From Thermoproteota archaeon (GTDB taxonomy: Archaea; Korarchaeota; Korarchaeia; Korarchaeales; Korarchaeaceae): a stretch of DNA of 64,000 nucleotides. Location: NCBI GenBank assembly GCA_027491785.1, contig JAOZGJ010000010.1, positions 1 to 64,000 on the forward strand, read 5' to 3'. The position numbers were made by a program, and so were the translations under genes. The notes under the pieces are model-generated. The model saw only the letters and a list, made by a program, of their open reading frames with translations, made no database searches and was not told the DNA's origin. Positions 36,961 to 62,775 of the stretch are shown here, piece by piece (positions within the stretch are counted from its first letter, which is position 1; every line of letters starts with the position of its first letter).

Positions 36961-38811
36961 TTAGAGGGTGATATCCAGCTCCCTGAGCTTCTCCGGGGTG
37001 GGGGCGCCATCTACCCATCCGCGCAGCTCGTAGTATTCATTCTTCATCTCATCGAGCTCCACCACCTGACCCTTAGCGGGTCCCTCCGGCATGGGCTCCT
37101 CCAGCAGGCGCTTCGGCAGCGTATCGTCCTTTCCAGTGAACCCGTATCTGTTCAGTATTACCCTCTCCAGATTATATATGCGCTCTCCTATCTTCAATAG
37201 CTCATCCTCCGTTAAATTCCACCCGGTGACTGAGGACAGTAGCTCCGAGAACTCAGGAAGTCCTATCGCGAAGGTCACGAAGAGACAGTTGACCGTCGAG
37301 TTGACCACGTCCGTGAAGTCTTGGAAGAGCTTGACCCACTTAGCCTTGCCTTTCGGTGTTAGCGGATCTATCTTCTCAGGTATGCCTAGGATCTCAGGAG
37401 ATATCGTGTAGCCCGTTACATGGCATCCTCCCCTGTTAGCTGTGGCGTACTCAAGCCCTATACCCTTGGCACCCCTCGGATCATAAGCAGGCATTTCAAG
37501 GCCCTTAACGCTCATCGAAAGCTCAGGATGGCCATATATCTCAGCTAATCTCTTTGATCCAAGTGCTAGGTACCTCCCGAAGCCGGATTTATGAGCAGTA
37601 CGCCATACTGCCTCTACTAGAGCTGCGGCATTACCGAACCTGAGGTCTAGCCCCTCTAGGTCCTCCTTAGGTATGTATCCCCTCTCATTCAGCTCCATGG
37701 CTGCTGCTATGGTTGATCCCATTGATATGGTATCAAGGCCGAACTCATCGCAGTAATGATTTGCCTTTATTATCGCTTCCAGATTATCCACGCCTGTTGA
37801 GCTTCCTAAAGCCCATACCGATTCATATTCAGGACCCTCGCTATATAGGATCTGATAAGGCCCTGACTCTACCTTCGTGACCCTCCCGCAAGCGGATGTG
37901 CATCCCCAACATGCCCTATTCCTTATCAGGTAGTTGGCCTCTATGGCCTCTCCACTTATCTTGTCAGCATTGGGATTCACACCAGTCTGCCAGTTCTTAT
38001 ATGGAAACATACCAGCTTGGTTTATTATGTTCACCAAAATGGCGGTTCCATACTTCGGTAATCCCTCTCCAGTTACTGAGTTCTTCTTCATCATATCTAA
38101 CGCCTTCTTGGATGCCTCCTTGTACTTCTCCCTGTTAGCTATCGGGACCCTCTCGGTTCCCGATACCACAATTGCCTTCAGCTTCTTAGATCCCATGACA
38201 GCTCCAAGTCCACCTCTTCCAGCTGATCTGTGCTCATCGTTCATCAGACTAGCGAAGTAAACTAGGTTCTCACCAGCAGGCCCTACACAGAGGACGCTAG
38301 CATTCCTCCTCCCTATCCTCCTTTTCAGTACCTTATCTGTGATGAACGTGTTCTTACCCCAGAGGTCCTTGGCTCCCTTCAACTCCGCCTCTCCATCAAT
38401 TATGGAGAGGTAAACGGGCTCGTCAGATGCTCCTTCCAGTATTACTGCATCATAACCTGCCATCTTCAGGTATGTCCCCCACTCCCCTCCGGAATTTCCG
38501 CTTCCTATGGATCCGGTTAGCGGGGCCCTCAAGGCCATCGCGTGATACCTACCGGGAGAGGGAAAACCAGGGATTCCCGTACCAGGGCCTGTGGCCAATA
38601 TCAGGACGTTCTCAGGACCAAGGGGATCTATATCCCTAGGGGCGATCCCCTTAGACATGTATTCCTTTAGGTATTGATAGAGAAGATATACGGCATATCC
38701 CTTCCCTCCTAGGTATTTCCTGGCAATTTCCTCGGATGTGGGTTCCACTTTGATGGATCCAGTGGAGAGGTCCACTCTTAAAATCTTACCCATATATCCC
38801 CCAGCATTCAT
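36961..38811 (-). CDS. Aldehyde ferredoxin oxidoreductase family (tungsten enzyme)
   Basis: GGYMGKILRVDLSTGSIKVEPTSEEIARKYLGGKGYAVYLL, ACWGCTSACGR, AGRGGLGAVMGSKKLKAIVV. Confidence 0.93.
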   Translation of the reverse strand: MNAGGYMGKILRVDLSTGSIKVEPTSEEIARKYLGGKGYAVYLLYQYLKEYMSKGIAPRDIDPLGPENVLILATGPGTGIPGFPSPGRYHAMALRAPLTGSIGSGNSGGEWGTYLKMAGYDAVILEGASDEPVYLSIIDGEAELKGAKDLWGKNTFITDKVLKRRIGRRNASVLCVGPAGENLVYFASLMNDEHRSAGRGGLGAVMGSKKLKAIVVSGTERVPIANREKYKEASKKALDMMKKNSVTGEGLPKYGTAILVNIINQAGMFPYKNWQTGVNPNADKISGEAIEANYLIRNRACWGCTSACGRVTKVESGPYQILYSEGPEYESVWALGSSTGVDNLEAIIKANHYCDEFGLDTISMGSTIAAAMELNERGYIPKEDLEGLDLRFGNAAALVEAVWRTAHKSGFGRYLALGSKRLAEIYGHPELSMSVKGLEMPAYDPRGAKGIGLEYATANRGGCHVTGYTISPEILGIPEKIDPLTPKGKAKWVKLFQDFTDVVNSTVNCLFVTFAIGLPEFSELLSSVTGWNLTEDELLKIGERIYNLERVILNRYGFTGKDDTLPKRLLEEPMPEGPAKGQVVELDEMKNEYYELRGWVDGAPTPEKLRELDITL

Positions 38812-42117: not shown

Positions 42118-43692
42118 TTAGTAGCCCAAATCTCTGAAGAGTTCCGAATCCTGAACGTAACTCTTCCTGAGCTTGAGAGCCAATTCGGCTTTACCTAGCT
42201 CTCTCCCAAGATAGGCGGCATGGGAGTAGCCAGATACTAGCCCGAGATGGAATATCTCAAGGTAAATGTCCGAGGCTTTCTCACCGCATATGGTAACATC
42301 AGGTCTCCTCGGATCATCCCACTTGAAATGCATGGCACAGATCTCGCCTCGATCCCTGTCTACCCATATCCTGAAGAAACCAGTCCTATCGTACTGTACC
42401 TTCCTCCCCCTAGCCTTCACGACCTTACCCATAGCATCATATCTGAAGTCTTTCCTCCTCTTCTCCTTCAGGACTAGGAGGTCTATACCGAGATCCTTAG
42501 GGAATACTCCCCTCTCCTTTGAGAGGTACATCATCTTGACAGCTTGGGCCACTTCCCAGACGGATCCGTAGGTTTTATCGCTTGCCTCCGTAGTTAGGAC
42601 AATACTCGCTTCAAGCTCAGAGGCGAGAGCCACCAATTGGGCATTTACTCCATGACTATCGGCATCGATGAGTTCGCTGACATTACCTATCCCCATGAAA
42701 AGCTGGACATCTGGATTTCTCCTAGAGAACTCGTAGAAGGAGATGAGGGACTTGATGAAGCTGGGAGCGTGTATCGGATGAACTATCAGGTCAGCCAAGA
42801 CGTTATTTATGCCATACTTCCTAGCCATTCTGAGATTCTCCTCCATGGCCCTAACCCTTTCCTCCGGTTCACTTGGAAAGTAGCCAGAGGCATAATCATA
42901 TGGTATTATCACGCAGACCTTATCCTTCACGATGTCATGAAGCACTTCCATGTTAGATCTCTCGAGGCTCACTATCATATCAACGCCCGCCTCGATAGCA
43001 GCTTCTATCTCCTTAGGAGAAATTGAATCTATACTTATAGGAGCGTTAGTCACCTCTCTAACTGCTCTAACTATATCTCCTATCTTGGAGGAGTCATCTT
43101 GACCAGCAACTACTCCTATATCTATTATATCAGCTCCAGATTCTATATAGTGGGCGGTAATCCTCTTTATCTCATTTTTAGTGAGCTTCGGAGCATCCAC
43201 TATCTCCGCCATGATCCTAATCGGCAGCTCCCTCGCAATGCAGAGCCCCCTAAGATCTATGCACCTCTCCCTGTCAACCATAGCCCTCGCTCTGTTCACG
43301 GCCTCCCTAAACTCCCTATCGGCATCTCTCCTAATCTCTTCTTCGAGAAGCTCGCATGCAGGTATGTCATGCGATAACTTAAGCCCTTTCCTCACTTGTT
43401 CCATTATGATTGGTAGATCAGCTGCATCCTTGGGGCCCTTAAACGCTGGAATACCCAAGGAATCCTCTATGTACTTGGAGCTGCCCCTTAACAGCCCTGG
43501 GACTATGATGGCATCGTAGCCAGATAGATCTAGGGTTTTAATATGCTCCACAATGAACTTAGGTGTTAGTAGTGCGGCCACTGGAAAGGGAACAGCCACG
43601 AGATCGTACTCAATACCCGATCTATCCGCATAGGCTCTGACGTAATCCTTGGCCAGCTCTCCCGTTATCAACAGGTACTTCAATATCCTCAC
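42118..43692 (-). CDS. Dihydropteroate synthase-related protein (archaeal DHPS-like)
   Basis: YIESGADIIDIGVVAGQDDSSKIGDIVRAVREVTNAPISIDSISPKEIEAAIEAGVDMIVSLE. Confidence 0.85.
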   Translation of the reverse strand: MRILKYLLITGELAKDYVRAYADRSGIEYDLVAVPFPVAALLTPKFIVEHIKTLDLSGYDAIIVPGLLRGSSKYIEDSLGIPAFKGPKDAADLPIIMEQVRKGLKLSHDIPACELLEEEIRRDADREFREAVNRARAMVDRERCIDLRGLCIARELPIRIMAEIVDAPKLTKNEIKRITAHYIESGADIIDIGVVAGQDDSSKIGDIVRAVREVTNAPISIDSISPKEIEAAIEAGVDMIVSLERSNMEVLHDIVKDKVCVIIPYDYASGYFPSEPEERVRAMEENLRMARKYGINNVLADLIVHPIHAPSFIKSLISFYEFSRRNPDVQLFMGIGNVSELIDADSHGVNAQLVALASELEASIVLTTEASDKTYGSVWEVAQAVKMMYLSKERGVFPKDLGIDLLVLKEKRRKDFRYDAMGKVVKARGRKVQYDRTGFFRIWVDRDRGEICAMHFKWDDPRRPDVTICGEKASDIYLEIFHLGLVSGYSHAAYLGRELGKAELALKLRKSYVQDSELFRDLGY

Positions 43693-43712
43693 CTAATTAA
43701 TTAGCTAGCTAA

Positions 43713-44477
43713 TTAGATAGGTAGAGATAGGATGTGAACTATGGTATCCTCTAACTGATCCGGATCGTCCACGACTGTAACACCCTCGACCCTTCTCAAG
43801 GCTTCTATGTTCCTCCTATCAAGCTCCCTTATCTTTATCCTAGCTTTCTGAAAACAGTGTATGGCATTCTCTGGGCATGTGAGTTCACATACCCTGCACC
43901 CATGGCACCTCGTCAGATCTAAGACGGGTACCCCATCAAGCTCTCTAATGGCCCCGTAGGGACACCTATTCAGGCACTCCATGCAATTCGTGCATACCTC
44001 TCGATCTATGTAGCAGGGGACCTCGGTCTCCTCCGTCACATCGGATGGGAGGACTACTACAGGAACGCCTCCCTTTAGGGCCTGAGATGTGATCGTCGTC
44101 ACTATGCTGTCAGAAATGCCGTAAACGATCTTAGCTACTGTATTAGATGTAGCTGGTGCTATCACGAGCAATCCGTACCTGCCAAGCATGAACCTACCTG
44201 AGTAAGTGCAGCTGGCGCCGGCAACTTCCTCTGTGATTACCTCCTCATAATGGTTTCCAGGCGATATATCTCCTATTCTATCAAGGATGCCGTACATTCT
44301 GGCCACTTCCTCACCGGCCTTGCTCATATAAGTGGTTATCTTAACTCCATGTTTCTCCTTGATCCTCTTTAGAACACCAAAACTCTCCCTCATGAAGCTT
44401 CCTGATCCAGTTATTCCCCATGCGATGAAATGTAGACCTCCTTCTCCTCTTAGCAATCCCAAGTTTGCATCAACCAT
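43713..44477 (-). CDS. Archaeal flavoprotein with two [4Fe-4S] motifs, dihydromethanopterin reductase (DmrX)-like
   Basis: HFIAWGITGSGSFMRE, LVIAPATSNTVAKIVYGISDSI, CTNCMECLNRCPYGAI, CHGCRVCELTCPENAI. Confidence 0.82.
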   Translation of the reverse strand: MVDANLGLLRGEGGLHFIAWGITGSGSFMRESFGVLKRIKEKHGVKITTYMSKAGEEVARMYGILDRIGDISPGNHYEEVITEEVAGASCTYSGRFMLGRYGLLVIAPATSNTVAKIVYGISDSIVTTITSQALKGGVPVVVLPSDVTEETEVPCYIDREVCTNCMECLNRCPYGAIRELDGVPVLDLTRCHGCRVCELTCPENAIHCFQKARIKIRELDRRNIEALRRVEGVTVVDDPDQLEDTIVHILSLPI

Positions 44478-44560
44478 CCTTCATTTCTCCCTTTCTTCTA
44501 TTTTCCCTTTCTCCATCTTTCCCTTTCCCTTCCTTCCTTTTCTCTGCCTCATTTACAGAT

Positions 44561-45520
44561 TCAAATGGTGAGCAATTGAGCACCCGCATTGTTAGCCCTC
44601 GACACGATGACCTTACCCCCTCCATGTTCCCTCAGGAAGCCCTTCAATTTATCAGCTAGCTTCTGATAACTATCCTCATCAGCCAAGCCATAGAACGATG
44701 GGCCCCAGGAGCTTTGTCCAGCTCCATAAGCTCCATTCTCCAGCAGGAACTCCACTCCCTTCTCTATTAGAGGAGACCTGAAGATGCCTCCCTGGACATG
44801 GGAGAACATCCTACCTACCTCCCTCTCGAACTTTGTGATCGCATCGCCGAAGCCCTGAATGTCCCTCTTCATCAGCGAGGGGATTATTTCAAGGATGAGT
44901 ATCCTGAAGGTCTCGCAGGTGCATTGATCGATCTCCCTCAACTTCCTCGTCAAATCCTCAAGAGAAAGCTCCTCCTTCTCTCCGGATATACCTTCCTCCA
45001 TTCTAGGCATACCGATTACGAAGATCCAATCCTTGGGAAACTCGTATCTGGATATGAGGATAGGTATCTCTCCCTTCTCAACTCCTCCGTCGACGATCAG
45101 ACCACCATACTTGAAGGAATAGATCCCAACGCCCGATCTCTTTCCCCTCCCAAGGATCTTGGCCAGCTCTTCCACAGAGACATCCATTCCTGAGTGCTTC
45201 AACATAGCATAACCTATCCCCAGTGAGAGTTGCGTTCCAGAGCCCAAGCCCACATGCGGGGGTATGTCCTCGATGATCCTTATGCTCATTCCATCCTCGA
45301 TCTTGAAATGTTCCTTCACCTTCTTGGCATAGAGTAGGGCCCTCTCCCCACCGCCCATGACTTGGAATCGATCGGCATCGGACACCTCTAAGATAACGCG
45401 AGGATTGTTAAGAGCGACACCCACGCTTCCATAGGACCTCCTAAGATCGCCCTTCATGTCTAAGATCCCGAAATGTATCCTAGAAGGTGTTTTCAAGATG
45501 GTTTTCATTACATCGCCCAA
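44561..45520 (-). CDS. Beta-ribofuranosylaminobenzene 5'-phosphate synthase (GHMP-like), methanopterin biosynthesis
   Basis: TPSRIHFGILDMKGDLRRSYGSVGVALNNP, IPPHVGLGSGTQLSLGIGYAM, GRGKRSGVGIYSFKYGGLIVDGG. Confidence 0.9.
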   Translation of the reverse strand: MGDVMKTILKTPSRIHFGILDMKGDLRRSYGSVGVALNNPRVILEVSDADRFQVMGGGERALLYAKKVKEHFKIEDGMSIRIIEDIPPHVGLGSGTQLSLGIGYAMLKHSGMDVSVEELAKILGRGKRSGVGIYSFKYGGLIVDGGVEKGEIPILISRYEFPKDWIFVIGMPRMEEGISGEKEELSLEDLTRKLREIDQCTCETFRILILEIIPSLMKRDIQGFGDAITKFEREVGRMFSHVQGGIFRSPLIEKGVEFLLENGAYGAGQSSWGPSFYGLADEDSYQKLADKLKGFLREHGGGKVIVSRANNAGAQLLTI

Positions 45521-45702
45521 CCTAATGAGTTAGAGGTATCTAATATATAAGCTATCAAAATCAAATAACAACGAAAATGATGCGGTTTCGATCCCAAGGT
45601 TGTGAGAGCATTAAAGGCCTCAAAGACTTCAACTGAATGTCTCATCATATAACTGTACTTAACTCAGATTAAGTTAGTTAAAAATAATTTATGTTTACCC
45701 AT

Positions 45703-46377
45703 TTATTTATTTAACTTAATATTGAGTCTATTAACGATATCTCTCATTATCCTGTTATAGGGTTCCTCGGGACATATTCTAGAGACGAGCTCGCTGTAAT
45801 GGAGAACCAATTTAGTCAGCTTTTCCGCATCCTTGGGCCTTATCTTCCTGAATACAGGGATTCTCGTTGCATGGATAAGGGATTCCAAAACTGCGTGTCT
45901 GCACCTAGTAAAGAAGCAGGGCTTTACTTTCCTCAGCAAGATCCCATCTATTCTTAGCTTAACAGATAAGAAATCTCCTTTATCCTTGAAGTTTAGAAGA
46001 GAAACTTCCATAGAAGCGTTCGAGCCTTTAAGGGGGGGTAGCCTCATGCCATAGGACATGTCATAACCTTCCTCAGGTATTTCGTTGAAGGTAGCTAGGT
46101 AAAAGATTTCCACGTCATCAAGCAGGTTAATCAGGGCAGAGCTCTCCCTCATCAGGTTTTCAAGCGTAGTAGTACCCTTAAATAGTTTCTCAATGATGAC
46201 TGCACTTCCAGCCCTTCTCACACCTATTGGCGCCGAATGAAGGGAACCATCTCCATTCTTGGTCGTGCATATGGACTCCACTAGCAGGCCATCACTGAGA
46301 CCGATATTATCCAATAAATCCGGCACATCAAAGCTGGTATAATTGCCTGGAGGTGGGATTTTTCCCATCGCACCCAA
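45703..46377 (-). CDS. DUF447 family protein (methanopterin-associated)
   Basis: GLLVESICTTKNGDGSLHSAPIGVRRAGSAVIIEKLFKGTTTLENLM; located among methanopterin genes. Confidence 0.8.
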   Translation of the reverse strand: MGAMGKIPPPGNYTSFDVPDLLDNIGLSDGLLVESICTTKNGDGSLHSAPIGVRRAGSAVIIEKLFKGTTTLENLMRESSALINLLDDVEIFYLATFNEIPEEGYDMSYGMRLPPLKGSNASMEVSLLNFKDKGDFLSVKLRIDGILLRKVKPCFFTRCRHAVLESLIHATRIPVFRKIRPKDAEKLTKLVLHYSELVSRICPEEPYNRIMRDIVNRLNIKLNK

Positions 46378-46528: not shown

Positions 46529-47017
46529 ATGCTACTTGTAGGGGAAGCTCTGGTTGGTGAGGGCAACGAGGTCGCCCATATCGATTTAATCATCGGAGAT
46601 AAGGATGGACCCGTAGGTAACGCCTTCAGTGTATCCCTGTCCAGCCCAAGGCAGGGACACACCCCCTTACTAGCTGTACTGGAGCCAAATCTTCAGCCCA
46701 AGCCGTCGACATTGATAGTGAACAAGGTAACGATAAAGAACGCCTTCCAGGCGGAATTGATGTTCGGTCCAGCCCAAGCGGCGGTCGCCAAAGCCGTTGC
46801 CGATTCTGTGGCTGAGGGGATAATACCAAAGAACTTGGTGGAGGATATAGTAATAGTGGTCTCCGTATTCATTCACTGGGAGGCTAAGGATAAGGAGAAG
46901 ATCTACAAATATAACTATGAAGCCACGAAGCTGGCGATAAAGAGGGCCTTCTCAGGAGAGCCTTCAATAGATGAGGTCCTAGAGAAGAAAGATAAAGCAA
47001 AACATCCCTTTGCATGA
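46529..47017 (+). CDS. fae: Formaldehyde-activating enzyme
   Basis: [80 protein letters not shown]. Confidence 0.95.
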
Positions 47018-47223: not shown

Positions 47224-49056
47224 ATGACAGATATAGAGAGAGAACGTGTTATTCTTGCGGCCAGTATGGCCGCTACCTTTAGGCCTGACTTAATGACTAA
47301 TGATAAGGTTGAGGCAGCTACCAAGGGACATGGCGTCCTTACGATACCTGTTCTTGTTGCAGCAAATTCCATAGCGGATGATCTCCTCAAAGGCTTTGAT
47401 ATATCCTTGGTGGATGCTGCTGCCCCTGACTTGCCTCTGGATATCATCATAGAGAGAGCCGTTAACGCAGCTAAGAGCGCTGGAGCTGCACCTGAGAATG
47501 CTGCTCTAATTGCCGCAGCCCTCGCGTATTTCTCTGGAGCTGCAGCTAGGGCAGGCGTTCCAATGGCAAACAGAAAGCTTGGTGCAATAGCTAGGATTCA
47601 TGCTGGAGCAACGAGGACTAGCGCTATAGCACTCACAACCAACAAGTTCACCCATAGGATAACCGCATTCCCTGCCTACAAAGCCATATATGAGAAGCTC
47701 ATGGATAAGAAGCTGATAAAACTTGATGGGGCTGTGCTGCCACCCTTCGTGGCTGGAGGTGCGATATATGGGCATAGCAGGCTGGGAGAAGATATAGTAG
47801 TTCCTGAGCTAGCTAAGGAGGCAGCTAAGGTTGGGGCCTTAGCCATGAAGAACGCCATGGAAGGAGCTGGTATGACCGCCTATCCACTATGGCCCGCACT
47901 GATAGCCGCCGCAGTTACGATGGAGATAGTGCATCCGGACTCTTTCCTCGGTGAGGAGTACGGTCCCTTCGGTACCAAGTTCTCATGCTATGCTGCCGGC
48001 CAGGGAGCCGTTGAAGCCATGGGATTACCAGCCAAGATTCACATAAGGGGAACAGGAGAGGAGTATGATACGGCCCAAGTCATCGGAGACTTCGGGCTAA
48101 TACTGAAGGACATAGGCGCACCTACGGTCATTGGGATGATGGCTCTCAATGAGATATTTGCCGGTTTCCAGGAATCGGCCATAATAGGAGCGGGATTCTC
48201 AGGAGGACCCGTAAATCCACCTTTAGGGCACTTAAATGGAGATGCTGTACCTGCCATCAAGCTATTGCTGAAGTACAAGGGAGATGTCTACGCAGTAGCT
48301 GATGAGATAAAGAAGTACAAGATGGAGAGCTTCTTCGATCCTGAGATGGCCCTCACAGCGCTCAACACGATATCTAGGGTAGCTGAGTGGGTGAAGAGAG
48401 GCCCCGTGACGAAGGCCCTGATGATAGCTGGAGAAGAGGTGAGGGATAGAGCCGTATACAGGAGAGCAGCCAAGGCGTATGAGATGCTCAAGGCAGGAAA
48501 GAGCGTTGAAGAGGTAGCTAGAGCCCTTGATGAGGAAAGGCTCCATTACGTTGAGAAGAGATCCTCTGAGATGCTTAGCGCTTTCTTAGGCAAGAAGATA
48601 GAGCTCAAGTTCACTGAACTGAGACCTCAGGCTAGGAGACACGATGGATTCACCGCCAAATACTGGGGATTCGACTCCTACATCTCATACGACATCACCA
48701 TAGATGGCAAGAAGTATCATATAGAGGACCTCTCAGCTAAAGCAGTTCCCGAGTATGCGATAGAGGGCAAGGGCAGAGATGATCCCAACATGGGTACAGC
48801 AATATTCGTTGGTTCTGTTGTTGCTCAGGAGCTTCAATACATAGGTCACACCATAATAAACGTGACAGTGCCAGCCGCTGTCGCAGCGATACTGGGAATG
48901 GATCCAAAGGAGGCCGGAAAGAAGGCCGAAGAGGGAGCTTACCTGACGAGAGCCATACCAGGAGCCAAATACACTGCTAGGGAAGTAGCCGCCATGGCTA
49001 AGAGAATCTACGAGATGATGTCTCAAGAGAAGCACGATATACTCCCGCCTCAGTGA
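47224..49056 (+). CDS. Uncharacterised 610-aa soluble protein between Fae and MtdB, putative C1-linked function
   Basis: Long continuous ORF with TATA-like TTTAAA about 30 nt upstream; same-strand context fae-[this]-mtdB; no family recognised. Confidence 0.85.
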   Translation: MTDIERERVILAASMAATFRPDLMTNDKVEAATKGHGVLTIPVLVAANSIADDLLKGFDISLVDAAAPDLPLDIIIERAVNAAKSAGAAPENAALIAAALAYFSGAAARAGVPMANRKLGAIARIHAGATRTSAIALTTNKFTHRITAFPAYKAIYEKLMDKKLIKLDGAVLPPFVAGGAIYGHSRLGEDIVVPELAKEAAKVGALAMKNAMEGAGMTAYPLWPALIAAAVTMEIVHPDSFLGEEYGPFGTKFSCYAAGQGAVEAMGLPAKIHIRGTGEEYDTAQVIGDFGLILKDIGAPTVIGMMALNEIFAGFQESAIIGAGFSGGPVNPPLGHLNGDAVPAIKLLLKYKGDVYAVADEIKKYKMESFFDPEMALTALNTISRVAEWVKRGPVTKALMIAGEEVRDRAVYRRAAKAYEMLKAGKSVEEVARALDEERLHYVEKRSSEMLSAFLGKKIELKFTELRPQARRHDGFTAKYWGFDSYISYDITIDGKKYHIEDLSAKAVPEYAIEGKGRDDPNMGTAIFVGSVVAQELQYIGHTIINVTVPAAVAAILGMDPKEAGKKAEEGAYLTRAIPGAKYTAREVAAMAKRIYEMMSQEKHDILPPQ

Positions 49057-49106: not shown

Positions 49107-50015
49107 GTGTTAAGTTTGGAGTTTAAGAAGATAATGATCTTTTTGAGTACCGATGAGTACCCGAGCCCCTTCGACATACAGATGATGTACGATTCGGGGG
49201 CAGATCACGTGATCTATTACGGTAATGTAGATTCAAAGAAGGCTAAGCAGCTTATTATGGATTCCATGTTCCCGAGGGGACCTGAGGGGGTCGTTTACAC
49301 TGGTATGTTCATAGGGGGAACTAACGTAGAAGAGTGCTTAGCTATAGCAGATGTAGCTAAGAAGACGATGTTCCCTCCATTCCAGATAGCTACGATAATA
49401 GATCCCCAGGGCGGCTATACCACTGCTGCAGCCTTAGTTGCTAAGGTAGAGAGATGCCTGAAGGACAAGTTCAACTTGGACATATCCGAGGCTACCGTAG
49501 CTGTTGTTGGAGGAGCTGGCAAGGTGGGAGGTAATGCGGTCCTACTGCTTGCTAAAGATGGAGCTAAAGTGAGGATAGTGGATATCCTTCTTGATTTAGC
49601 TAAGAAGAGGAAAGAAGAGGTAAACAAAGTGGTAGGAGAGGAGAGAGTTGAGGTCTTTGAGGAGGAACCTAGAAGCCCGGACGTAATGGAAAGGGCATTG
49701 AAAGGCGCTGATGTCATCATAACAGCGGGTCCACCTGGGCTCCAGCTAGTGCCCAAATCCGTATTGGAGAAGATAACTGAATGTAAGGTGGCAGCCGATG
49801 TTAATGCCGTTCCCCCGTTGGGAATAGAGGGGCTGAAGAGTTCTAAGGATTGCAAGGCCTTCTTGGGAAACATTCACGGCATTGGAGCTCTTGCAATAGG
49901 ACCTTTAAAGAATCAGGTCGAAATGGAACTCATAAAGAGGGCACTTAACGAACCTTCTGGCTTCTTTGAGCTAGATGAAATGCATAAAGTGGCCAAGAGC
50001 CTGCTAGGCCTTTGA
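49107..50015 (+). CDS. mtdB-like: Methylene-tetrahydromethanopterin dehydrogenase (NAD(P)-dependent, MtdB-like)
   Basis: SPFDIQMMYDSGADHVIYYGNVD, IDPQGGYTTAAALVAKVE, VAVVGGAGKVGGNAVLLLAKDGAKVRIVD (dinucleotide binding), DVNAVPPLGIEGL. Confidence 0.9.
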   Translation: MLSLEFKKIMIFLSTDEYPSPFDIQMMYDSGADHVIYYGNVDSKKAKQLIMDSMFPRGPEGVVYTGMFIGGTNVEECLAIADVAKKTMFPPFQIATIIDPQGGYTTAAALVAKVERCLKDKFNLDISEATVAVVGGAGKVGGNAVLLLAKDGAKVRIVDILLDLAKKRKEEVNKVVGEERVEVFEEEPRSPDVMERALKGADVIITAGPPGLQLVPKSVLEKITECKVAADVNAVPPLGIEGLKSSKDCKAFLGNIHGIGALAIGPLKNQVEMELIKRALNEPSGFFELDEMHKVAKSLLGL

Positions 50016-50071: not shown

Positions 50072-50311
50072 GTGGTTTATATGATTAAAGTGAGATGTCC
50101 AGTCTGTGGAAAGGAGTTTGAAGTAGAGAAAGGACCCATCGTTACATGCCCGGACTGCAAGGCCCCTCTCAGGATCACGGTCCTCGAAGGTGGAGCTACA
50201 CTAGCTGAAGTTGCTGTGGAGGAGGAATTAGGAGAGTGGAAAGAGAAAGATCTCATCGAATTTGAGGAAGAGGAATTAGAAGAGCTTTGGGGTGATATAG
50301 AGGAGTCCTAG
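50072..50311 (+). CDS. LysW-like small zinc-ribbon protein with acidic C-terminus
   Basis: CPVCGKEFEVEKGPIVTCPDCKAPLRI... acidic tail EFEEEELEELWGDIEES. Confidence 0.75.
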   Translation: MVYMIKVRCPVCGKEFEVEKGPIVTCPDCKAPLRITVLEGGATLAEVAVEEELGEWKEKDLIEFEEEELEELWGDIEES

Positions 50312-50766
50312 CCTATGGGGCTTACGACGGTCCTTACCTGTTTTACTCCTTTTTTGGATGATACCCTATCAAGCAATTCCTTTACCCTCTTAGCACTCCC
50401 TTTCACTATTATTATCAATATGCAGTGCTCCTTATCCAAGTGGATATGGGTGTTGGATAAAACGATATCGAGGTACTCGTGCTGTATCTCGGTCAGGTAC
50501 TCATCTATTCCCCTCGTCTCATGATTGTATATTATATTGATCGTGCCGACCACGTTTCCCTCCTTACACTGCCAGTTCCTGTCAGCTAGGAAGTTCCTCA
50601 TGGCCAGCCTTATAGCCTTGGATCTCTTCATTCCAATTTGAGAGATTGTTTCATCAAATTCCCTGAGTAAATCAGCTGGTACAGATACGCCAAACCTGAC
50701 TACCCTACCATCTCCCAAATTTTCTTCTACTTTGTTCTTTCTCTGAGACATCTCTATTATCTCCAC
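50308..50766 (-). CDS. nikR: Nickel-responsive regulator NikR (RHH + ACT)
   Basis: RHH RFGVSVPADLLREFDETISQIGMKRSKAIRLAMRNFL; metal ligands QHEYLD / THIH / EHC. Confidence 0.92.
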   Translation of the reverse strand: MEIIEMSQRKNKVEENLGDGRVVRFGVSVPADLLREFDETISQIGMKRSKAIRLAMRNFLADRNWQCKEGNVVGTINIIYNHETRGIDEYLTEIQHEYLDIVLSNTHIHLDKEHCILIIIVKGSAKRVKELLDRVSSKKGVKQVRTVVSPIG

Positions 50767-50787: not shown

Positions 50788-51792
50788 CTAATAAGCATTA
50801 TCAGAAGAATTTCTAATATCATCATATAACCAACATTTCACCTCATTTTCACCAACTGGGATCATGGGAGGTTCATCTAAGCATTTCTCCTGAGAATGGG
50901 AATAGGGACACCTAGGATGAAATCTGCAGCCAATGGGAGGGTCAGTTATATTGGGATGCCTGCCAGGTATGGGAATGAGACCCCTGCTTGGTAGTGCATC
51001 TAGGAGGAGCTTGGAATATGGATGCAAAGGGGATCTGAAGAAATATTCAGCTTTAGTAATTTCAACTATTTGTCCACAATACATGACGGCTATTACATCA
51101 GCTAATTTTTCTGCAAACTCTAGATCATGCGTTATAAGAAGAATAGCCGGGCTATCCCTCATATTCTTGATTTCTCTCAAAGCCTTTAGTGCTTTTTCCT
51201 TCATGATGGAATCTAGGCCCTTCGTAGGCTCATCAACTAGAAGTACTTTCGGTTTTCCAGCGATTCCTATTGCTAGGAGGGCTCTCTGCTTCATACCTCC
51301 GCTAAGCTGATGTGGGTAGCTTCTAGCTATCCTCTCAGGGGGATTAAGGCCGAGTTTCCTCAAAATTTCAACGGAAGTTTTCCATGCCTCTTTTCTTTTA
51401 TACCCATAACGTTCGATGAGTATCTCCCCTATCTGATCTCCTATCTTAAGCGTTGGATTCAGCATGGTATCTGGATTTTGAGGGATCCACGCTATTTCCT
51501 TCCCTCTAATTTCTCTCATAGATCTTTCATTAAGATCCAAGAGGTTCTTCCCTCCATACAAGATCTCTCCTGAGGATGAGGCATTACTTGGAAGAAGTCT
51601 CATGATGGAAATTCCAAGGACGCTCTTTCCGCTACCACTTTCACCTACTAGGGAAAGTACTCTGCCTTTCCTTAGGTTTAGGCTTATGTCATCTAATACA
51701 TCGATCCTCCCTCTTTCCGTTTGGAAAGAAACTTTCAGTCCCCTAATTCTCAAAATAACTTCTGTATCTGTGACAGGCAACGTAATGCCCAC
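50788..51792 (-). CDS. ABC transporter ATP-binding protein (Opp/Dpp/Nik type)
   Basis: VGESGSGKSVLGISIMRLL, LSGGMKQRALLAIGIAGKPKVLLVDEPTKGLD, C-terminal GCRFHPRCPYS. Confidence 0.93.
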   Translation of the reverse strand: MGITLPVTDTEVILRIRGLKVSFQTERGRIDVLDDISLNLRKGRVLSLVGESGSGKSVLGISIMRLLPSNASSSGEILYGGKNLLDLNERSMREIRGKEIAWIPQNPDTMLNPTLKIGDQIGEILIERYGYKRKEAWKTSVEILRKLGLNPPERIARSYPHQLSGGMKQRALLAIGIAGKPKVLLVDEPTKGLDSIMKEKALKALREIKNMRDSPAILLITHDLEFAEKLADVIAVMYCGQIVEITKAEYFFRSPLHPYSKLLLDALPSRGLIPIPGRHPNITDPPIGCRFHPRCPYSHSQEKCLDEPPMIPVGENEVKCWLYDDIRNSSDNAY

Positions 51793-52645
51793 CCTCCACC
51801 TTCCTCAATCTAGGTACCTCTTCTTTGCATGTAGGCATCCTATAAGGACATCTACCGTAGAAGGGACATCCTCTCGATTCTACGCTTGTTTCTATCCTAT
51901 CTTCCCTTTTACCAACGAGAACTTCCGTATAAGGGTGTAATGGATTCTTGATAAGCTCTCTCGCTGGAGCTAGCTCTACTATACTCCCAGATAGCATTAC
52001 AGCTATCTTTTCTCCCATAAAAGAGGCTACTCTCACATCATGTGATATGAATAAATAGGAGAGATTTCCCTTCAACGACTTTATGAGTCTCAGGATATCT
52101 GCTTGCGTACTTACATCTAACATTGAAGTAGGTTCATCGCAGATGAGGAGAATGGGATTAGTTATCAGGGAGCTTGCTATAACTGCCCTCTGGAGCTCCC
52201 CTCCACTTACCTCATGAGGTCTCCTCTGAAGGATATCATAGTCTAAAGAAACCATTTCCAAGAGCTTTTCTATCTGATCCTCTCTTTCCCTCTTATCAAT
52301 ACCATGTATCTTCAAAGGCTCTACTATGCTATCATAAAGCCTCCATCTTGGATCTAATGCGCTCTCGGGATGTTGCGGAATATAGCCCATTAACCTCCTA
52401 AGTTCCCTTGGAATCCTCCCAGTTACATCCTTTCCGTTGAATACCACCTTTCCCTCTGTAGGTGCAGTAATTCCAAGGAGCACTTTAGCCAAGGTCGTCT
52501 TACCTGCACCCGATTCCCCGATAATGGAGAGGGATTCTCCCTCCCCTAGGGAAATCGTTACATTATTGAGGGCAATTACCCTCCTCCCACCTATCCATCC
52601 GCTCTTATAGATCTTAGTTAGGTTGATTCCCTCCAGAATCTTCAA
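51743..52645 (-). CDS. ABC transporter ATP-binding protein (Opp/Dpp/Nik type)
   Basis: GESGAGKTTLAKVLLGI, VSGGELQRAVIASSLITNPILLICDEPTSMLD, GCPFYGRCPYR. Confidence 0.93.
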   Translation of the reverse strand: MKILEGINLTKIYKSGWIGGRRVIALNNVTISLGEGESLSIIGESGAGKTTLAKVLLGITAPTEGKVVFNGKDVTGRIPRELRRLMGYIPQHPESALDPRWRLYDSIVEPLKIHGIDKREREDQIEKLLEMVSLDYDILQRRPHEVSGGELQRAVIASSLITNPILLICDEPTSMLDVSTQADILRLIKSLKGNLSYLFISHDVRVASFMGEKIAVMLSGSIVELAPARELIKNPLHPYTEVLVGKREDRIETSVESRGCPFYGRCPYRMPTCKEEVPRLRKVEGGHYVACHRYRSYFEN

Positions 52646-52667
52646 GAAGGGTCACCTTTTTGGATTT

Positions 52668-53465
52668 TCAGTCCAATTTAATGGTATAAGGTTGAACATA
52701 TTCCCCAAAGAAAGCATCTCGCCAGGCTGTTAGCTTAATGGCCTTCCTCACCTTATCTACATCTATAACTTTAACACTGGCGACGTGAGTGAGCCCTATG
52801 CCTCTAAGGATGTTAGGATGGGCCTGAGCTGTGGAACCAACCAGCGCGCGTATCTTTGCATTTTTAGAGTACTTTATTATGCTATCCAAAGTATCGTTAA
52901 GTATAGCTGCCCCAGTTATTATTACAGCATCTGCCTGCGGAAGCAATCTAGGCTCTAGACAGTCAGAGAAAGCATTTCTACGTGCAGATTTATCCCTCTC
53001 GAAGACGATGACATCATATCCTAATGACTTCAATTTATCTACTAGAGGGGTCATAAAGCCCACAACTGCTATCTTACCCTCAGGAATTTCCTTCCTAACG
53101 AGGCTCACGACATCCTCTACTAGATTTGAATTCCACCTCTCTAGATCTAAGAGGTATTGGGAGACTGCATTGATGGTAGCAATGCCTAAAACTCGTTCAA
53201 TCATATGCACGCTATCAGCCATTCTCAATGCCTCTGCAGCTGGGCCCTTCTCTGAGAATCTTGGTGGTTCCCATACTTCTCGGTTAGACATTTCCAGTAA
53301 AGGTGTCAGGCACGCACCTAAAGCCCTTCTCCCTTCAGGATCCCTCACTACCACGTAGGTGTAGGGATGACATACAGCAGCGTCTTCTATAATAAGATCC
53401 GGGCCCTCCTTGATCATCTCCTCGCATCTGCTCTTCAGGATATCTAAAATCATTTTAATCACCAC
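52668..53465 (-). CDS. DUF364/DUF4213 putative heavy-metal chelation protein
   Basis: KIAVVGFMTPLVDKLKSLGYDVIVFERDK, ADAVIITGAAILNDTLDSIIKYSKNAKIRALVGSTAQAHPNILRGIGLTHVASVKVIDVDKV. Confidence 0.8.
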   Translation of the reverse strand: MVIKMILDILKSRCEEMIKEGPDLIIEDAAVCHPYTYVVVRDPEGRRALGACLTPLLEMSNREVWEPPRFSEKGPAAEALRMADSVHMIERVLGIATINAVSQYLLDLERWNSNLVEDVVSLVRKEIPEGKIAVVGFMTPLVDKLKSLGYDVIVFERDKSARRNAFSDCLEPRLLPQADAVIITGAAILNDTLDSIIKYSKNAKIRALVGSTAQAHPNILRGIGLTHVASVKVIDVDKVRKAIKLTAWRDAFFGEYVQPYTIKLD

Positions 53466-54286
53466 AACCTTACTCTAAGCCTTGGATTAAGGCTTCCCTC
53501 GAGATCTATTGCTACGAGGGTCATTCCTAATATGAGGAGAGTTAGAGCAGCTGTCGGGGGGCCTATCGTCCATATCCATTCATCGGTCAGAAATATGATG
53601 CTTCTCTGGAGGGCATGCTGGATCTCCATGCCCCAGCTCAGAGTAGTTGGATCTTCTAGACCGAAGAAACCTACGCTAGCCTCAGCTAGCACAGCGTGCC
53701 CAGCTTCCAAGACGAACTGAGCTGCAACCAATGGGAAAGTTGCAGGCAACAGGTGCTTTACCATGATATATGAGTCTCGAGCTCCAATGCATCTTAGCCT
53801 CTCTATATAACTCTTGCTGCTCTCCTGCCTGATGAAGGGTTTTATCACCCTCGCTGTTATTGCCCATCCAAAGAAGGAAAGCACGAGTATTATCAGCCAC
53901 ACGTTCGGCCTGAGAAAAGTGGCTAAGATAACAATGAGGGGTAAACGTGGAACAGTAAGGAAGAAATCGAGAACCCTTGATATTAGGGGATCCCATTTGG
54001 GGTAATATCCGGATACCAGGGCGACGATGGTACCTATCAGCGTAGAGATGGCAGCTGTTAAGGTCCCTACAATGACGGAAGTTCTGGCTCCATAGATCAG
54101 GTGAGTCAGCACATCATGCCCCACGTCATCTGTCCCAAGCAGGTGATGGGTCGTCGGTGGGCTCAACGGTGTGAATAGATCCTCTGGTTGATAAGGGGAG
54201 ATGAGCGGAGCTAGAGTTCCTATAATAGCTACAATCATGATTATAGCAAGTCCTATATACCCTCCCATCCCCAATAGCAGTTTCAA
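53459..54286 (-). CDS. ABC transporter permease (DppC/NikC type)
   Basis: HLLGTDDVGHDVLTHLIYGARTSVIVG...; BPD motif. Confidence 0.92.
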   Translation of the reverse strand: MKLLLGMGGYIGLAIIMIVAIIGTLAPLISPYQPEDLFTPLSPPTTHHLLGTDDVGHDVLTHLIYGARTSVIVGTLTAAISTLIGTIVALVSGYYPKWDPLISRVLDFFLTVPRLPLIVILATFLRPNVWLIILVLSFFGWAITARVIKPFIRQESSKSYIERLRCIGARDSYIMVKHLLPATFPLVAAQFVLEAGHAVLAEASVGFFGLEDPTTLSWGMEIQHALQRSIIFLTDEWIWTIGPPTAALTLLILGMTLVAIDLEGSLNPRLRVRLW

Positions 54287-55257
54287 AGGAAACCCTCCCT
54301 CATCCTTGGATCTATGATCAGCGATAGGATATCTGCCAGGACATTCATGAGAACTAAAGAAGCCATTACAATGAGAAAAACCGCCTGCAGCAATGGAAAA
54401 TCATAGTAATCGTAGGCTGTCAACATGAGCCATGTGATCCCCGGGTAATTGAAGACATCTTCAACGAACATGCATGAAAGGATAGAGTATCCAAGGAGAA
54501 GGCCTGTTTTGGAGAATATGGGAGGGAGCGCATTTCTCATCACATGCCTTAGGAAGATGGTCCTCTCCTTTAACCCCTTTGATCTCGCGAAGAGGACGTA
54601 ATCCTCATCAAGGACGTTGATGATAGAATTCCTAAAGAAATAATACATTTGCCCGAATTCAGCCAGAGAGAATACGATTGCCGGAGCTATAGCATGCCAC
54701 AAGATATCCCTAATTCCCTCCTCGGTAGAAAAGCCTAGTGAAGGAAATATCCTGAGTTTTAAAGAGAAAAATATCAGGAATAGCATAGCTAGGGCGAAAG
54801 GTGGTACTGAATAGAGCGTCAAAGATATCGAGGTTAATGAGATATCCGTGAACCTCCCCCTCCTCTTGGCTGCTAGGGCGCTAAGGGGCAAGGCCAAAGA
54901 TATGGAGATAAGAAACCCCAGTAGTATTAAGATAATAGTCCTGAGCAGTGGGGGCAAGAGAACTTCCCTCACAGGCTCTGAAAAGTATGTAGAATATCCA
55001 AAATTTAGAAGCGCTATGTTCCTCATGTAAGTGAGATACTGATCGATGAGGGGCTTATTAAGTCCGTAATACTCTATTAGCTTATCCCTCGCCTCTTTCG
55101 TAAGGATTAAGGGAATATCAGCTGCTTCTCCACCTAGGTAATCTAAGGGACTTCCAGGCATGAACCTAACGAGCAGAAAGGAGACAGAAGCGATTAACAT
55201 GAGTAAGATCGCATATTGAATGACCTTAAAAAGTAAGGGCAGGAGGAGACGGCGCAA
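54283..55257 (-). CDS. ABC transporter permease (DppB/NikB type)
   Basis: SFLLVRFMPGSPLDYLGG, YGLNKPLIDQYLTYMRNIALLNFGYS, LFARSKGLKERTIFLRHVMRNALPP. Confidence 0.92.
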   Translation of the reverse strand: MRRLLLPLLFKVIQYAILLMLIASVSFLLVRFMPGSPLDYLGGEAADIPLILTKEARDKLIEYYGLNKPLIDQYLTYMRNIALLNFGYSTYFSEPVREVLLPPLLRTIILILLGFLISISLALPLSALAAKRRGRFTDISLTSISLTLYSVPPFALAMLFLIFFSLKLRIFPSLGFSTEEGIRDILWHAIAPAIVFSLAEFGQMYYFFRNSIINVLDEDYVLFARSKGLKERTIFLRHVMRNALPPIFSKTGLLLGYSILSCMFVEDVFNYPGITWLMLTAYDYYDFPLLQAVFLIVMASLVLMNVLADILSLIIDPRMREGFL

Positions 55258-55261
55258 CTAT

Positions 55262-56968
55262 CTACCCTCTCCTCACCTTTCTCATCAAATATACTAAGAT
55301 TAGGATCACGATTACCAGTAGGACTAGCGATATAAGGAGTTCATTCTGTCCTAACGTAGTTTTCACTGCACTCCCAGAGGGAGTATATTCGGCTCTCTTC
55401 AGTAGAGCAATTTTGTTCCACCATATAGGTATCCCATGGGCTATTCCCCGCTTTGTCCAGAACCAGTTAATTGGTTTAGATGTCGTATAGACGCAATCAG
55501 TCTTAGGATGATAGAGGGCAATCAGTGGAAGATCCTGCGCTATGATAAGCTGTAGCTTATCAGCTAATACCTTCTTCTTCTCTTTGTCTGTTGTTATATA
55601 GAATTCTTTATAGAGCTTTTGGAATGTTGTGTTGGAATATGTATGAGCTGGCCAATCAACTGTCGATTTTATTCCGGGCCAGAGATCAATAATCCCTCCA
55701 TGGCCCGTTATCGCCATGTAGAAATCTCCTTTGTCCAGTAAATTATCCATCGGCTTGGTATCCATTACCTTAATCACTATATCTATGCCCACTTCCTTCA
55801 ACTGCTGCCTTATTAATTCGGCTTCGCGTGAATACCTTTTCACTGAAAGCATTATAAAGGAGAGCTTCGTTCCATTAGGTGTCTCCCTTATACCATCGCC
55901 GTCCCTATCTTTAAATCCCATGCTATCCATCATTAGCTCGGCTTTGCTTCTATTGTAGTTATATCTAGGAAGATCAGGGTTGTACCACGGAGAGTCCGGA
56001 TGGGTTATGCCTAAACTTGCAACAACCCCTCCTCCATGGAGGACCTTCTCCACAATCTCAGACCTATTTATAGCATAGGCGATGGACTCCCTAAACCTCT
56101 TTAAAGTGAATGGATACCTTTTACAGTTGAATATGAGCTCTAGCACCCAGTAACTGGGTCCCTCCAAGATCCTATAAGATCTATCTCCCCTAAACGTTGA
56201 TACTACTTCAACTTCAGATCCGTAGAATGAGGCAGCATCCACCTCTCCACTCTTTAAGGCTACGGAGGCATCTCCGCCCATTGGTCCCCCTATGGCCTTT
56301 AAATAGAGCCTCTTTACAATAGGCGTACCCATAAAATAACCTTCATTTGCCTCTAATAAGTAATACTCACCTTTCTTATATTCTACTAATTTGTAAGGGC
56401 CAGATCCTATGAAAGCTTTTTTATCTACATATTTAAGCGGGTTAGTTACATTACTCCATACATGCTTCGGGATTATCTGCACCTCCCCCATGAACTCATC
56501 CAAGAAGCTGGAATAAGGTTCCTTAAGAGCTATCTCCACCGTAAGATTATCCAAAGCCCTCGCACTCTTCAAATATGTAGCTACCGCAGAAGCCCCAAAG
56601 GGGAAAGGATATTTCTTCAGGTAATTAAACGTGAATGCAACATCCTCTGCCGTTAAAGGTAGGCCATCATGCCAGTGGATCCCTCTTCTCAGGTGGATAA
56701 TCCACAGTAGTCCGTTGCTCTTTGAGGTCCAGTTACTGGCGAGCCAGGGTATGAACCCCTTATCATCCTTCCATATCAGGGTATCCCATATAAAGGAGGT
56801 TAGGACATAGGAAGGTCCTCTTCTGTGATGAAATGGTGTAGGAATACCCCAATCGCCAAAAGCTATGCTGTAGGTATTTATCTGATTTTCATTCTGACCG
56901 GATATCGACGATGCGGTTATCAGAAGAGAGAATAAGAGAATGAAGGGCAGTACCCTAATTATAGTCAT
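55262..56968 (-). CDS. ABC transporter substrate-binding protein (SBP family 5)
   Basis: Signal peptide; RRGIHWHDGLPLTAEDVAFTFNYLKK; RESIAYAINRSEIVEKVLHGGG; C-terminal TM anchor. Confidence 0.92.
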   Translation of the reverse strand: MTIIRVLPFILLFSLLITASSISGQNENQINTYSIAFGDWGIPTPFHHRRGPSYVLTSFIWDTLIWKDDKGFIPWLASNWTSKSNGLLWIIHLRRGIHWHDGLPLTAEDVAFTFNYLKKYPFPFGASAVATYLKSARALDNLTVEIALKEPYSSFLDEFMGEVQIIPKHVWSNVTNPLKYVDKKAFIGSGPYKLVEYKKGEYYLLEANEGYFMGTPIVKRLYLKAIGGPMGGDASVALKSGEVDAASFYGSEVEVVSTFRGDRSYRILEGPSYWVLELIFNCKRYPFTLKRFRESIAYAINRSEIVEKVLHGGGVVASLGITHPDSPWYNPDLPRYNYNRSKAELMMDSMGFKDRDGDGIRETPNGTKLSFIMLSVKRYSREAELIRQQLKEVGIDIVIKVMDTKPMDNLLDKGDFYMAITGHGGIIDLWPGIKSTVDWPAHTYSNTTFQKLYKEFYITTDKEKKKVLADKLQLIIAQDLPLIALYHPKTDCVYTTSKPINWFWTKRGIAHGIPIWWNKIALLKRAEYTPSGSAVKTTLGQNELLISLVLLVIVILILVYLMRKVRRG

Positions 56969-58113: not shown

Positions 58114-59370
58114 CTACTGCCCTAGGACTACCTTCTCGATCTCATCCCTCCTCTCGATTATGTCTCTCTTAGCTAGTTCCATTACCTCCCTAAGTGATAT
58201 GCCTAGCTGATCAGCTGCTGACCTTAGATCATCGTATTCAGGCTTCATATTTATTATGCTTCCATCGGGCGCCTTTGACACCTTTACCCTTACACGGAAT
58301 TCCTTTCCACCTATTCTCAGGGGGACAGGTTTCTTTATCCTCTTTGCTACTATTCTCGGGGTCTCTATGATCCTAACCCCCAGCGTACCTGCTTCCCTCA
58401 TCAGGACATTGACTAGGTGCTGGTAGTTATCTAATTCTGCTAAAACCTTTATCAAATGCCCGGGTCTATTCTTCTTCGTCACCATTGGGATTATCGCTGT
58501 ATCAATGGCTCCCTCCTCCATTAGCTTACCGACTAGATGGCCAAGAACCTCGCCGCTCACGTCGTCCACATGGGTCTCGAGGGTCACTATCTTATCCATG
58601 ATGAGCTCTCCTCTACTTCCCTCTATCAACCGGAGGACGTTAGGTACATTCTCAAACTCGCCAGTCGCTGCCCCATAGCCGACTCCCTCTATGGTCATTG
58701 GAGGAATGAAGCTCGTCACGCGGTGGGCTAGATTCACTAGGAGAGCGGCTCCCGTTGGAGTCGTAAGTTCAGCTTCTACGGGGGTATGTGATACTGGAAA
58801 CTTATGACGCTTCAGTATTTCTAGGACTGCCGGAGCGGGTACTGGAAGTCTGCCATGGGATATCTCCAGATAACCTCCTCCTAAGGCTGGAGGCATCGCA
58901 TAGATCTCGCTGTCTAGAAGGCCAGCCTCCTCCATCAGGGCGTAAGTCCCAACTATATCTAGGAGGGTATCTGCAGATGCAAGTTCGTGGAAGTGGGCTT
59001 TAGATGGTTCGAAACCATGAACAGCGACTTCAGAGGCGACTAGCTCATCTAGGGTTTTTCTCACGAGATCGGTCGCTTTTTCCGAGAGTTCCACCTTGCT
59101 GCACAGCTTATCAGCATTTTCCTTTATATCAGAAGCCATCACATGATGGAAGTGCTCATCTATCTCCATGAAGACCTGCTTAGCCCTTATCCCCCTCTTC
59201 CTCACATCCTTGATCTCCAACTTTATATCGTTAACGTAGTCTAGGAGATCCTTTACGGCATCGGCTATCCTATATAGGGGATCCTGAACTCCAGTCAGGT
59301 CCACTATAGCACCTAAAAACATATCTCCCGAAATACCAGCTATCCTAGGATCGATAACTAGAATCTTCAA
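58114..59370 (-). CDS. larC: Nickel-pincer cofactor biosynthesis protein LarC
   Basis: DPRIAGISGDMFLGAIVDL, VAVHGFEPSKAHFHELASADTLLDIVGTYAL, ETHVDDVSGEVLGHLVGKLMEEGAIDTAIIPMVTKKNRPGHLIKVL. Confidence 0.92.
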   Translation of the reverse strand: MKILVIDPRIAGISGDMFLGAIVDLTGVQDPLYRIADAVKDLLDYVNDIKLEIKDVRKRGIRAKQVFMEIDEHFHHVMASDIKENADKLCSKVELSEKATDLVRKTLDELVASEVAVHGFEPSKAHFHELASADTLLDIVGTYALMEEAGLLDSEIYAMPPALGGGYLEISHGRLPVPAPAVLEILKRHKFPVSHTPVEAELTTPTGAALLVNLAHRVTSFIPPMTIEGVGYGAATGEFENVPNVLRLIEGSRGELIMDKIVTLETHVDDVSGEVLGHLVGKLMEEGAIDTAIIPMVTKKNRPGHLIKVLAELDNYQHLVNVLMREAGTLGVRIIETPRIVAKRIKKPVPLRIGGKEFRVRVKVSKAPDGSIINMKPEYDDLRSAADQLGISLREVMELAKRDIIERRDEIEKVVLGQ

Positions 59371-60149
59371 CTTTCCTTCCTCCCGATGGCGGCCCTATTG
59401 GCCACCGCTATGGCAGCGTAAGCTGCCCCAACACTATTATTCACATTGACCACGACAATCCCCGGAGAGCAGGACTGAAGCATTGAGTACAGGGCAGATA
59501 TGCCCTCTCCTCCCAAACCATAGCCAACTGAGGTGGGAAGCCCGATGACCAGCACGTCCACGAGGGATGCCACTATGGAGGGAAGCATGCCCTCCATGCC
59601 CGCTGCTACTACTATCACATCGACATCTTCGGATAGGACTTTCCTGACGGCATCTATGGATCTCTTGAGGCTGGCTATGCCCGCATCGTACACGCTTATC
59701 GCCTTACATCCAGCTTCCTCCACTATCAACCTGACCTCCTCGGCTACAGGGACGTCGGAGGTGCCTGCAGTTATTATCCCTACCCTCCCTCCCGTTGAGG
59801 GGGGTTTGTAACCCCTCTCCCTGATAACGAAGACCCTAGAGTGGGGCGCGCTTATCACATCGTACTCATCCTTGAGCTCGTTAATGACATCCATCTGATC
59901 GTCCCTGACCCTAGAGACGATCACCCTCCTACTTCTCCCGATTGTCCTCTTAATGACGCTTCTCAGGGTTTCCTTATCTTTCTTCTCAGCGAAGACTACC
60001 TCTGGTAATCCCTTCCTCATTTCCCTGCCGAAATCAAGCTTAACAGTGTCTCCTATTTCTTCTATTCCCCATAACCTTATCTCCCTTTCAGCAGTCTCTA
60101 TGTCTATCTCTCCGCTCATCAGCTTCATGAGGATCGATCTGAGGTTCAT
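59367..60149 (-). CDS. larB: Nickel-pincer cofactor biosynthesis protein LarB (PurE-like)
   Basis: LDFGREMRKGLPEVVFAEKK, GIITAGTSDVPVAEEVRLIVEEAGCKAISVYDAGIASLKR, VVVAAGMEGMLPSIVASLVDVLVIGLPTSVGYG. Confidence 0.92.
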   Translation of the reverse strand: MNLRSILMKLMSGEIDIETAEREIRLWGIEEIGDTVKLDFGREMRKGLPEVVFAEKKDKETLRSVIKRTIGRSRRVIVSRVRDDQMDVINELKDEYDVISAPHSRVFVIRERGYKPPSTGGRVGIITAGTSDVPVAEEVRLIVEEAGCKAISVYDAGIASLKRSIDAVRKVLSEDVDVIVVAAGMEGMLPSIVASLVDVLVIGLPTSVGYGLGGEGISALYSMLQSCSPGIVVVNVNNSVGAAYAAIAVANRAAIGRKES

Positions 60150-61637: not shown

Positions 61638-61951
61638 GTGTGGTAGAAGAGGAAGAAAGGAGGAAGGAAGTTAGGAAACCTATGAAGGTTGATGACATAC
61701 TGAATAACGATATCTGGGATGTGGATTACGAGCCCCACATAAAACTGGATAGCGAGAAGTGCAGGGGGTGCGAGAGCAAGCCTTGCCTCTATCTATGTCC
61801 CGCTCAATGTTACACGCTCGTCGGTGATAGGGTCCTATTCAGCTACGAGGGATGCCTTGAATGCGGGACGTGCAGGGTGATATGCCCGAAAAACGCCATC
61901 ACATGGGACTATCCAGTAAGCGGGAGGGGGATCCACTACAGATTCAGCTGA
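61634..61951 (+). CDS. fixX: FixX ferredoxin-like protein
   Basis: KCRGCESKPCLYLCPAQCYTL...CLECGTCRVICPKNAITWDYPVSGRGIHYRF. Confidence 0.93.
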   Translation: MSVVEEEERRKEVRKPMKVDDILNNDIWDVDYEPHIKLDSEKCRGCESKPCLYLCPAQCYTLVGDRVLFSYEGCLECGTCRVICPKNAITWDYPVSGRGIHYRFS

Positions 61952-61961
61952 TGATTCGAGG

Positions 61962-62774: not shown

Positions 62775-62775
62775 T

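Follow-up and report, generated by a model that had tools for sequence, protein, structure and literature searches.

The gene studied here, which we call X, lies within an archaeal window (the whole stretch of DNA that was analysed, 64,000 nucleotides) and is an open reading frame of 610 codons on the forward strand, exactly as the preliminary description had it. Domain matches confirmed that X is flanked by genes for Fae and for an MtdB-like dehydrogenase, and the gene content of 42118-46377 confirmed the H4MPT island that had been proposed around it. The features of the window are:

10301-11548, - strand: ordinary LarA homologue (Lar_N plus LarA_C; PF09861, E 7.4e-46), 36 kb from X
42118-46377, - strand: H4MPT biosynthesis genes, encoding a DHPS-like protein (TIGR00284), a DmrB-like flavoprotein (dihydromethanopterin-reductase type, TIGR02700), beta-RFAP synthase and a DUF447 protein
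46529-47017, + strand: fae, formaldehyde-activating enzyme (PF08714, E 1.9e-76; TIGR03126)
47224-49056, + strand: X, ATG start, 610 aa; its family has no known relatives; proposed to be an enzyme that depends on the nickel-pincer-nucleotide (NPN) cofactor
49107-50015, + strand: mtdB-like methylene-H4MPT dehydrogenase gene (PF09176, N-terminal domain, E 7.9e-25)
50308-50766, - strand: NikR, nickel-responsive regulator (PF08753, NF002169)
50788-56968, - strand: nickel/peptide-type ABC transporter, judged from the sequences (two ATPases, two permeases, binding protein)
52668-53465: DUF364/DUF4213 "putative heavy-metal chelation" gene inside the ABC transporter block
58114-59370, - strand: larC, full-length, whose product inserts nickel during NPN synthesis (PF01969, E 8.5e-110)
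59367-60149, - strand: larB, pyridinium carboxylase of NPN synthesis (PF00731, E 1.2e-15)
60339-63837, + strand: genes for a FixC-type flavoprotein, a FixX-like ferredoxin (61682-61951), EtfB and EtfA

X ends 50 nt before mtdB, and the two genes are thus probably co-transcribed. NikR, the ABC transporter, larC and larB all follow within about 11 kb past X. Because NikR adjoins the transporter, its substrate is presumably nickel, and the homologues of the window larB include annotated Rhizobium LarB. Judged from sequence, the genome of the window has predicted LarA-type NPN enzymes besides X, a second LarA copy being encoded on contig C40. In both places the larA homologue is preceded by a DUF401-like permease gene (window 10301-12744 on contig C88; L029:239-2715 on C40). 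Elsewhere in the window, a HerA-like ATPase gene (31241-33805, + strand) carries an intein-like insertion of about 365 aa (31748-32842, boundaries set by eye) inside its P-loop (GMTRSGK/SSF). By eye we also recognised an aldehyde:ferredoxin oxidoreductase-like gene (36961-38811), followed by a radical-SAM/SPASM-like gene (35585-36862), about 8 kb from fae.

X is a conserved gene and not a chance reading frame, with full-length homologues at 43-93% identity in archaea and bacteria. We found 19 of these, making 20 loci with the window; identities were 61-93% and 43-47% among archaea, and 43-44% for the Rhizobium/Ciceribacter plasmids. A pattern scan recovered five archaeal loci (61-93%). Whole-genome searches added G359 (Thermoproteota-type), G817 (methanogen-like), and seven full-length genes and one remnant from two genera of a single family, comprising G984 and its relatives (43-47%); the label "methanogen" for G817, G984 and relatives is our reading of gene content. 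Finally, tblastn against plasmids found X on five Rhizobium/Ciceribacter records, and the viral contigs searched contained no relatives. X is rare and its distribution patchy: a full-length gene was present in about 15 of some 1,480 genomes searched (a count in which redundancy is retained), and the searched members of the window's genus yielded just two carriers, the window genome included. In G1171 (L069:9571-10288), a remnant of 58 aa is all that is left of X beside an intact mini-LarC gene (see below), which suggests recent loss.

The preliminary description could place X in no known family, and this was borne out by every search performed. X alone and as alignments gave nothing credible against Pfam, NCBIfam and PDB sequences; X and 11 homologues did not match Lar_N (PF09861) or LarA_C (PF21113); and family searches revealed no homology to Fae, MtdB, Mch or Fmd. 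Profile comparisons rejected LarA (hhalign probability 0.6%), LarC and mini-LarC, and DUF2193 (PF09959; hhalign probability 0.2%) as homologues. That X might be a methyl-coenzyme-M-reductase-like (F430) nickel enzyme was also considered, given the nickel link; the PDB searches with X gave no sequence or fold match. A first AF2 model, built with seven close homologues, was discarded (pLDDT 58). The model retained (pLDDT 76.9, pTM 0.81, moderate confidence) was built from an alignment of 14 homologues, with the Rhizobium sequences left out, and consists largely of helices, plus a small beta region. The preliminary description had suggested a Foldseek search; run with this model against the PDB, it gave no hit at E <= 0.001, all rows listed being unrelated with TM <= 0.20, which further supports the absence of a known family. 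Neither a LarA-like motif nor a LarA-like fold match was found for X, and the LarA fold was absent from the model in the same Foldseek search, at the model's moderate confidence. Membership of X in the LarA superfamily is therefore excluded by domain, profile and fold tests. Our literature search found no paper naming the X family or describing NPN in formaldehyde metabolism. Support for placing the family in the class of NPN users comes from gene context only.

The preliminary description had taken X for a C1 enzyme or carrier of a new kind, with H4MPT-bound carbon as a possible target, as the position between fae and mtdB would suggest. A survey of the homologues showed that most are not linked to these genes, an outcome that the preliminary description had itself named as refuting its proposal: taken strictly, fae/mtdB adjoin X in 2 of 20 loci, those of the window and of its sister genome G007. 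In G007, moreover, fae is spread over several reading frames (L022:120-550; a pseudogene or an assembly error) directly upstream of an intact X. No match to fae, mtdB or mch was found near X in the stretches read from Rhizobium plasmids, Thorarchaeota, G063 and methanogens. A C1 link is nevertheless present in three archaeal lineages: window/G007, G065 and G062. In G065, X lies beside H4MPT biosynthesis genes at the point where its contig stops, mini-LarC is a neighbour of mtdB, and a separate contig holds fae-larC-larE as a cluster, the larC contig also carrying fmd and mch; in G062, mch and fmd genes lie about 4-10 kb from X. As a general claim the proposed C1 function is therefore not supported, because the fae/mtdB link is missing at most X loci; a C1 role is at best a lineage-specific use, plausible in these three lineages. 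It could still be argued that X is an H4MPT-dependent enzyme or carrier and that the NPN genes lie nearby only through shared nickel regulation of the islands, as the fae-X-mtdB order and the C1 genes around X in G065 and G062 might suggest. We regard this as distinctly unlikely, since the Rhizobium plasmids, Thorarchaeota, G063 and the methanogens read have lar genes next to X where no fae, mtdB or mch match occurs, and since X has stayed intact beside the broken fae of G007.

As a rule, X is linked to the genes of NPN synthesis; loci in which it adjoins fae/mtdB are exceptional. The gene next to X is larC or mini-LarC in 16 of the 20 full-length loci (window counted), to which the window and G065 add lar genes within the X cluster. 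Mini-LarC is a stand-alone LarC C-terminal domain of about 165 aa that consistently adjoins X and matches the C-terminal part of PF01969 (E 3e-14 to 2e-18 in L002, L004, L052 and L053); as far as we found, its function has not been described. Its genes include:

L052:10592-11092: mini-LarC
L053:10554-11051: mini-LarC
L004:11881-12372: mini-LarC
L002:11831-12322: mini-LarC
L024:13767-14297: mini-LarC

All five Rhizobium/Ciceribacter plasmids share the order X - mini-LarC - larC - larE - larB, followed in four by a gene for a HoxN/NixA-type nickel permease (Ciceribacter gave a short, weak match only). Among archaea, the arrangements are larB - larC - X with a convergent mini-LarC (G062), larC - X (G063), X - mini-LarC - larB (G064) and X - mini-LarC in all eight methanogen-type genomes, one of them with a frameshifted mini-LarC. 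G007 matches the window both in its blocks (NikR, ABC transporter, larC, larB) and in their order, with the blocks divided among contigs. The only locus with no lar link is that of G359, where X lies at a contig end and the incomplete assembly gave no LarC match.

Two further observations were made at these loci. In two of the plasmid operons, those of Rhizobium tropici CIAT 899 and sp. CCGE531, larE is broken into two open reading frames (L025:15613-16419 and L026:11544-12350); CCGE532, CB3090 and Ciceribacter have the gene intact. Two unrelated archaea have a DUF2193 gene in the neighbourhood of X. In L052 (6362-7879) it is the second gene upstream of X, with a MIP channel gene between them; in L016 (11594-13150) its distance from X is about 11 kb.

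The plasmids also allowed related operons to be compared. None of the five X-bearing plasmids contained a match to larA (the search covered the plasmid sequences; the chromosomes may carry one). The control was a R. leguminosarum plasmid, on which larA occurs together with larC - larE - larB and both X and mini-LarC are lacking; among plasmids, mini-LarC was confined to the five X records. In the plasmids compared, X and mini-LarC thus replace larA in otherwise equivalent Rhizobium operons, and since the operons carry either one or the other, the slot of the cofactor user appears to be filled by LarA or by X. Similarly, G984, a 99% complete genome, has X and mini-LarC, and LarA was not found in it. 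LarA is also present in the X genomes G000, G007, G062, G064 and G817, and the lar genes of these genomes therefore need no X as a user. Separately, on Sulfitobacter-type plasmids (L077, L078), FadR/GntR regulators and sugar-acid genes accompany larE-larB in a stretch with no annotated larA or X, and these plasmids are possible sources of further NPN users.

Alternatively, X could act with mini-LarC as a maturation or tailoring factor in the service of another enzyme, modifying, storing or delivering NPN or providing nickel. Indeed, at loci that can be read on both sides, X almost always has larC or mini-LarC close by; X has no known catalytic domain; and the LarA found in some X genomes would be a possible client. 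We consider this role rather unlikely: the plasmid operon already encodes the three steps of NPN synthesis and mini-LarC, with a nickel permease in four cases, and offers no other candidate user; the larA-larCEB operon of R. leguminosarum exists without X; and G984 carries X at 99% completeness without LarA.

The conserved residues of X were compared with what an NPN enzyme requires. LarA needs a lysine tether, a histidine nickel ligand and two catalytic histidines (PMC11796402, PMC12611868). Across 12 archaeal and bacterial homologues of X, 108 of the 610 positions were invariant, including H184, H237, H273 and H336 together with K118, K141 and K271, as positions in the sequence. X would therefore hold the residues that an NPN site needs, although conserved His and Lys residues are frequent in enzymes of every kind and not specific to such a site. 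Several strongly conserved loops (169-190, 240-251 and 324-335) were modelled with low confidence, which, in a model of moderate overall quality, may reflect a site ordered by an absent cofactor, as is commonly seen. The same alignment bears on the suggestion that X is related to neither NPN nor C1 metabolism, being perhaps a structural or substrate-binding protein that travels with mobile metal/C1 islands. Its patchy distribution does suggest horizontal transfer; however, so many invariant positions across archaea and bacteria, among them charged residues and histidines of the kind that active sites usually contain, and the repeated independent pairing of X with lar genes make this explanation very improbable.

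All together, X is probably a second kind of NPN enzyme, unrelated to LarA, as its genome context indicates. LarB, LarE and LarC make NPN, and in LarA this cofactor takes up a hydride and gives it back (PMC7583248, PMC11770544, PMC12611868). By analogy, the three proteins would supply NPN for X, and mini-LarC, as a small dedicated partner encoded beside X, may help to deliver or load it. X would bind the cofactor through its invariant His and Lys residues and use it as hydride acceptor and donor, the substrate being a small hydroxylated compound. In the three archaeal lineages whose X and lar genes lie among those for Fae, MtdB, Mch, Fmd or H4MPT biosynthesis, the likeliest task of X would be to make or handle a formaldehyde-level compound that is taken up by Fae. 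If the reaction were a net oxidation, the FixC/FixX-like proteins and EtfAB could accept the electrons, as their position beside larB suggests. The reading as a whole, with X as the apo-enzyme of a second NPN class unrelated in sequence to LarA, mini-LarC as a loading partner and a C1 role in some lineages, seems to us likely. Its narrower form is doubtful, and we put it forward tentatively: that this independent nickel-pincer class with its mini-LarC loader oxidises or interconverts, in anaerobic thermophilic archaea, a C1 compound (methanol or a hydroxymethyl compound) and so feeds Fae, which would bring nickel-pincer chemistry into formaldehyde/H4MPT metabolism.

To our knowledge, LarA is the only protein superfamily known to use NPN. 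Nevertheless, an earlier study found larB/E/C without larA in about 15% of the genomes that it analysed, and non-LarA NPN-binding proteins were predicted on this ground (PMC11796402). X is a candidate for these proteins, and a concrete, testable one. The cassette (X, mini-LarC, LarC, LarE, LarB and nickel permease) is self-contained on plasmids of culturable rhizobia. If the proposal is true, NPN chemistry is not confined to the LarA fold, and some archaea have given it a place in C1 metabolism.

Among known systems, DUF2193 (PF09959), a methanogen protein of undescribed function, shares with X only the neighbourhood in L052 and L016 and is not its homologue. The C1 enzymes of the Fae/MtdB/H4MPT type are neighbours of X in the window and in two other archaeal lineages; they lack similarity to X and are absent from most of its loci. 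Mini-LarC is homologous to the C-terminal domain of LarC (PF01969, profile positions about 246-368 of 375); unlike LarC, it has no N-terminal domain and pairs with X, and wherever this was checked a full-length LarC is encoded as well. LarA-superfamily proteins (lactate racemase and other NPN-dependent 2-hydroxyacid racemases and epimerases; PF09861 plus PF21113) differ from X in sequence, to which they show no similarity, and in length (about 420 aa against 610 aa for X); moreover, the model of X is mostly helical with no PDB match, and the mini-LarC that accompanies X is absent from the larA operon examined. Yet, like X, they sit with larB, larC, larE and nickel transport genes, and both have conserved His and Lys residues, as a Lys-tethered, His-ligated NPN would need. 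In its proposed working principle, X comes closest to the LarA-type NPN enzymes.
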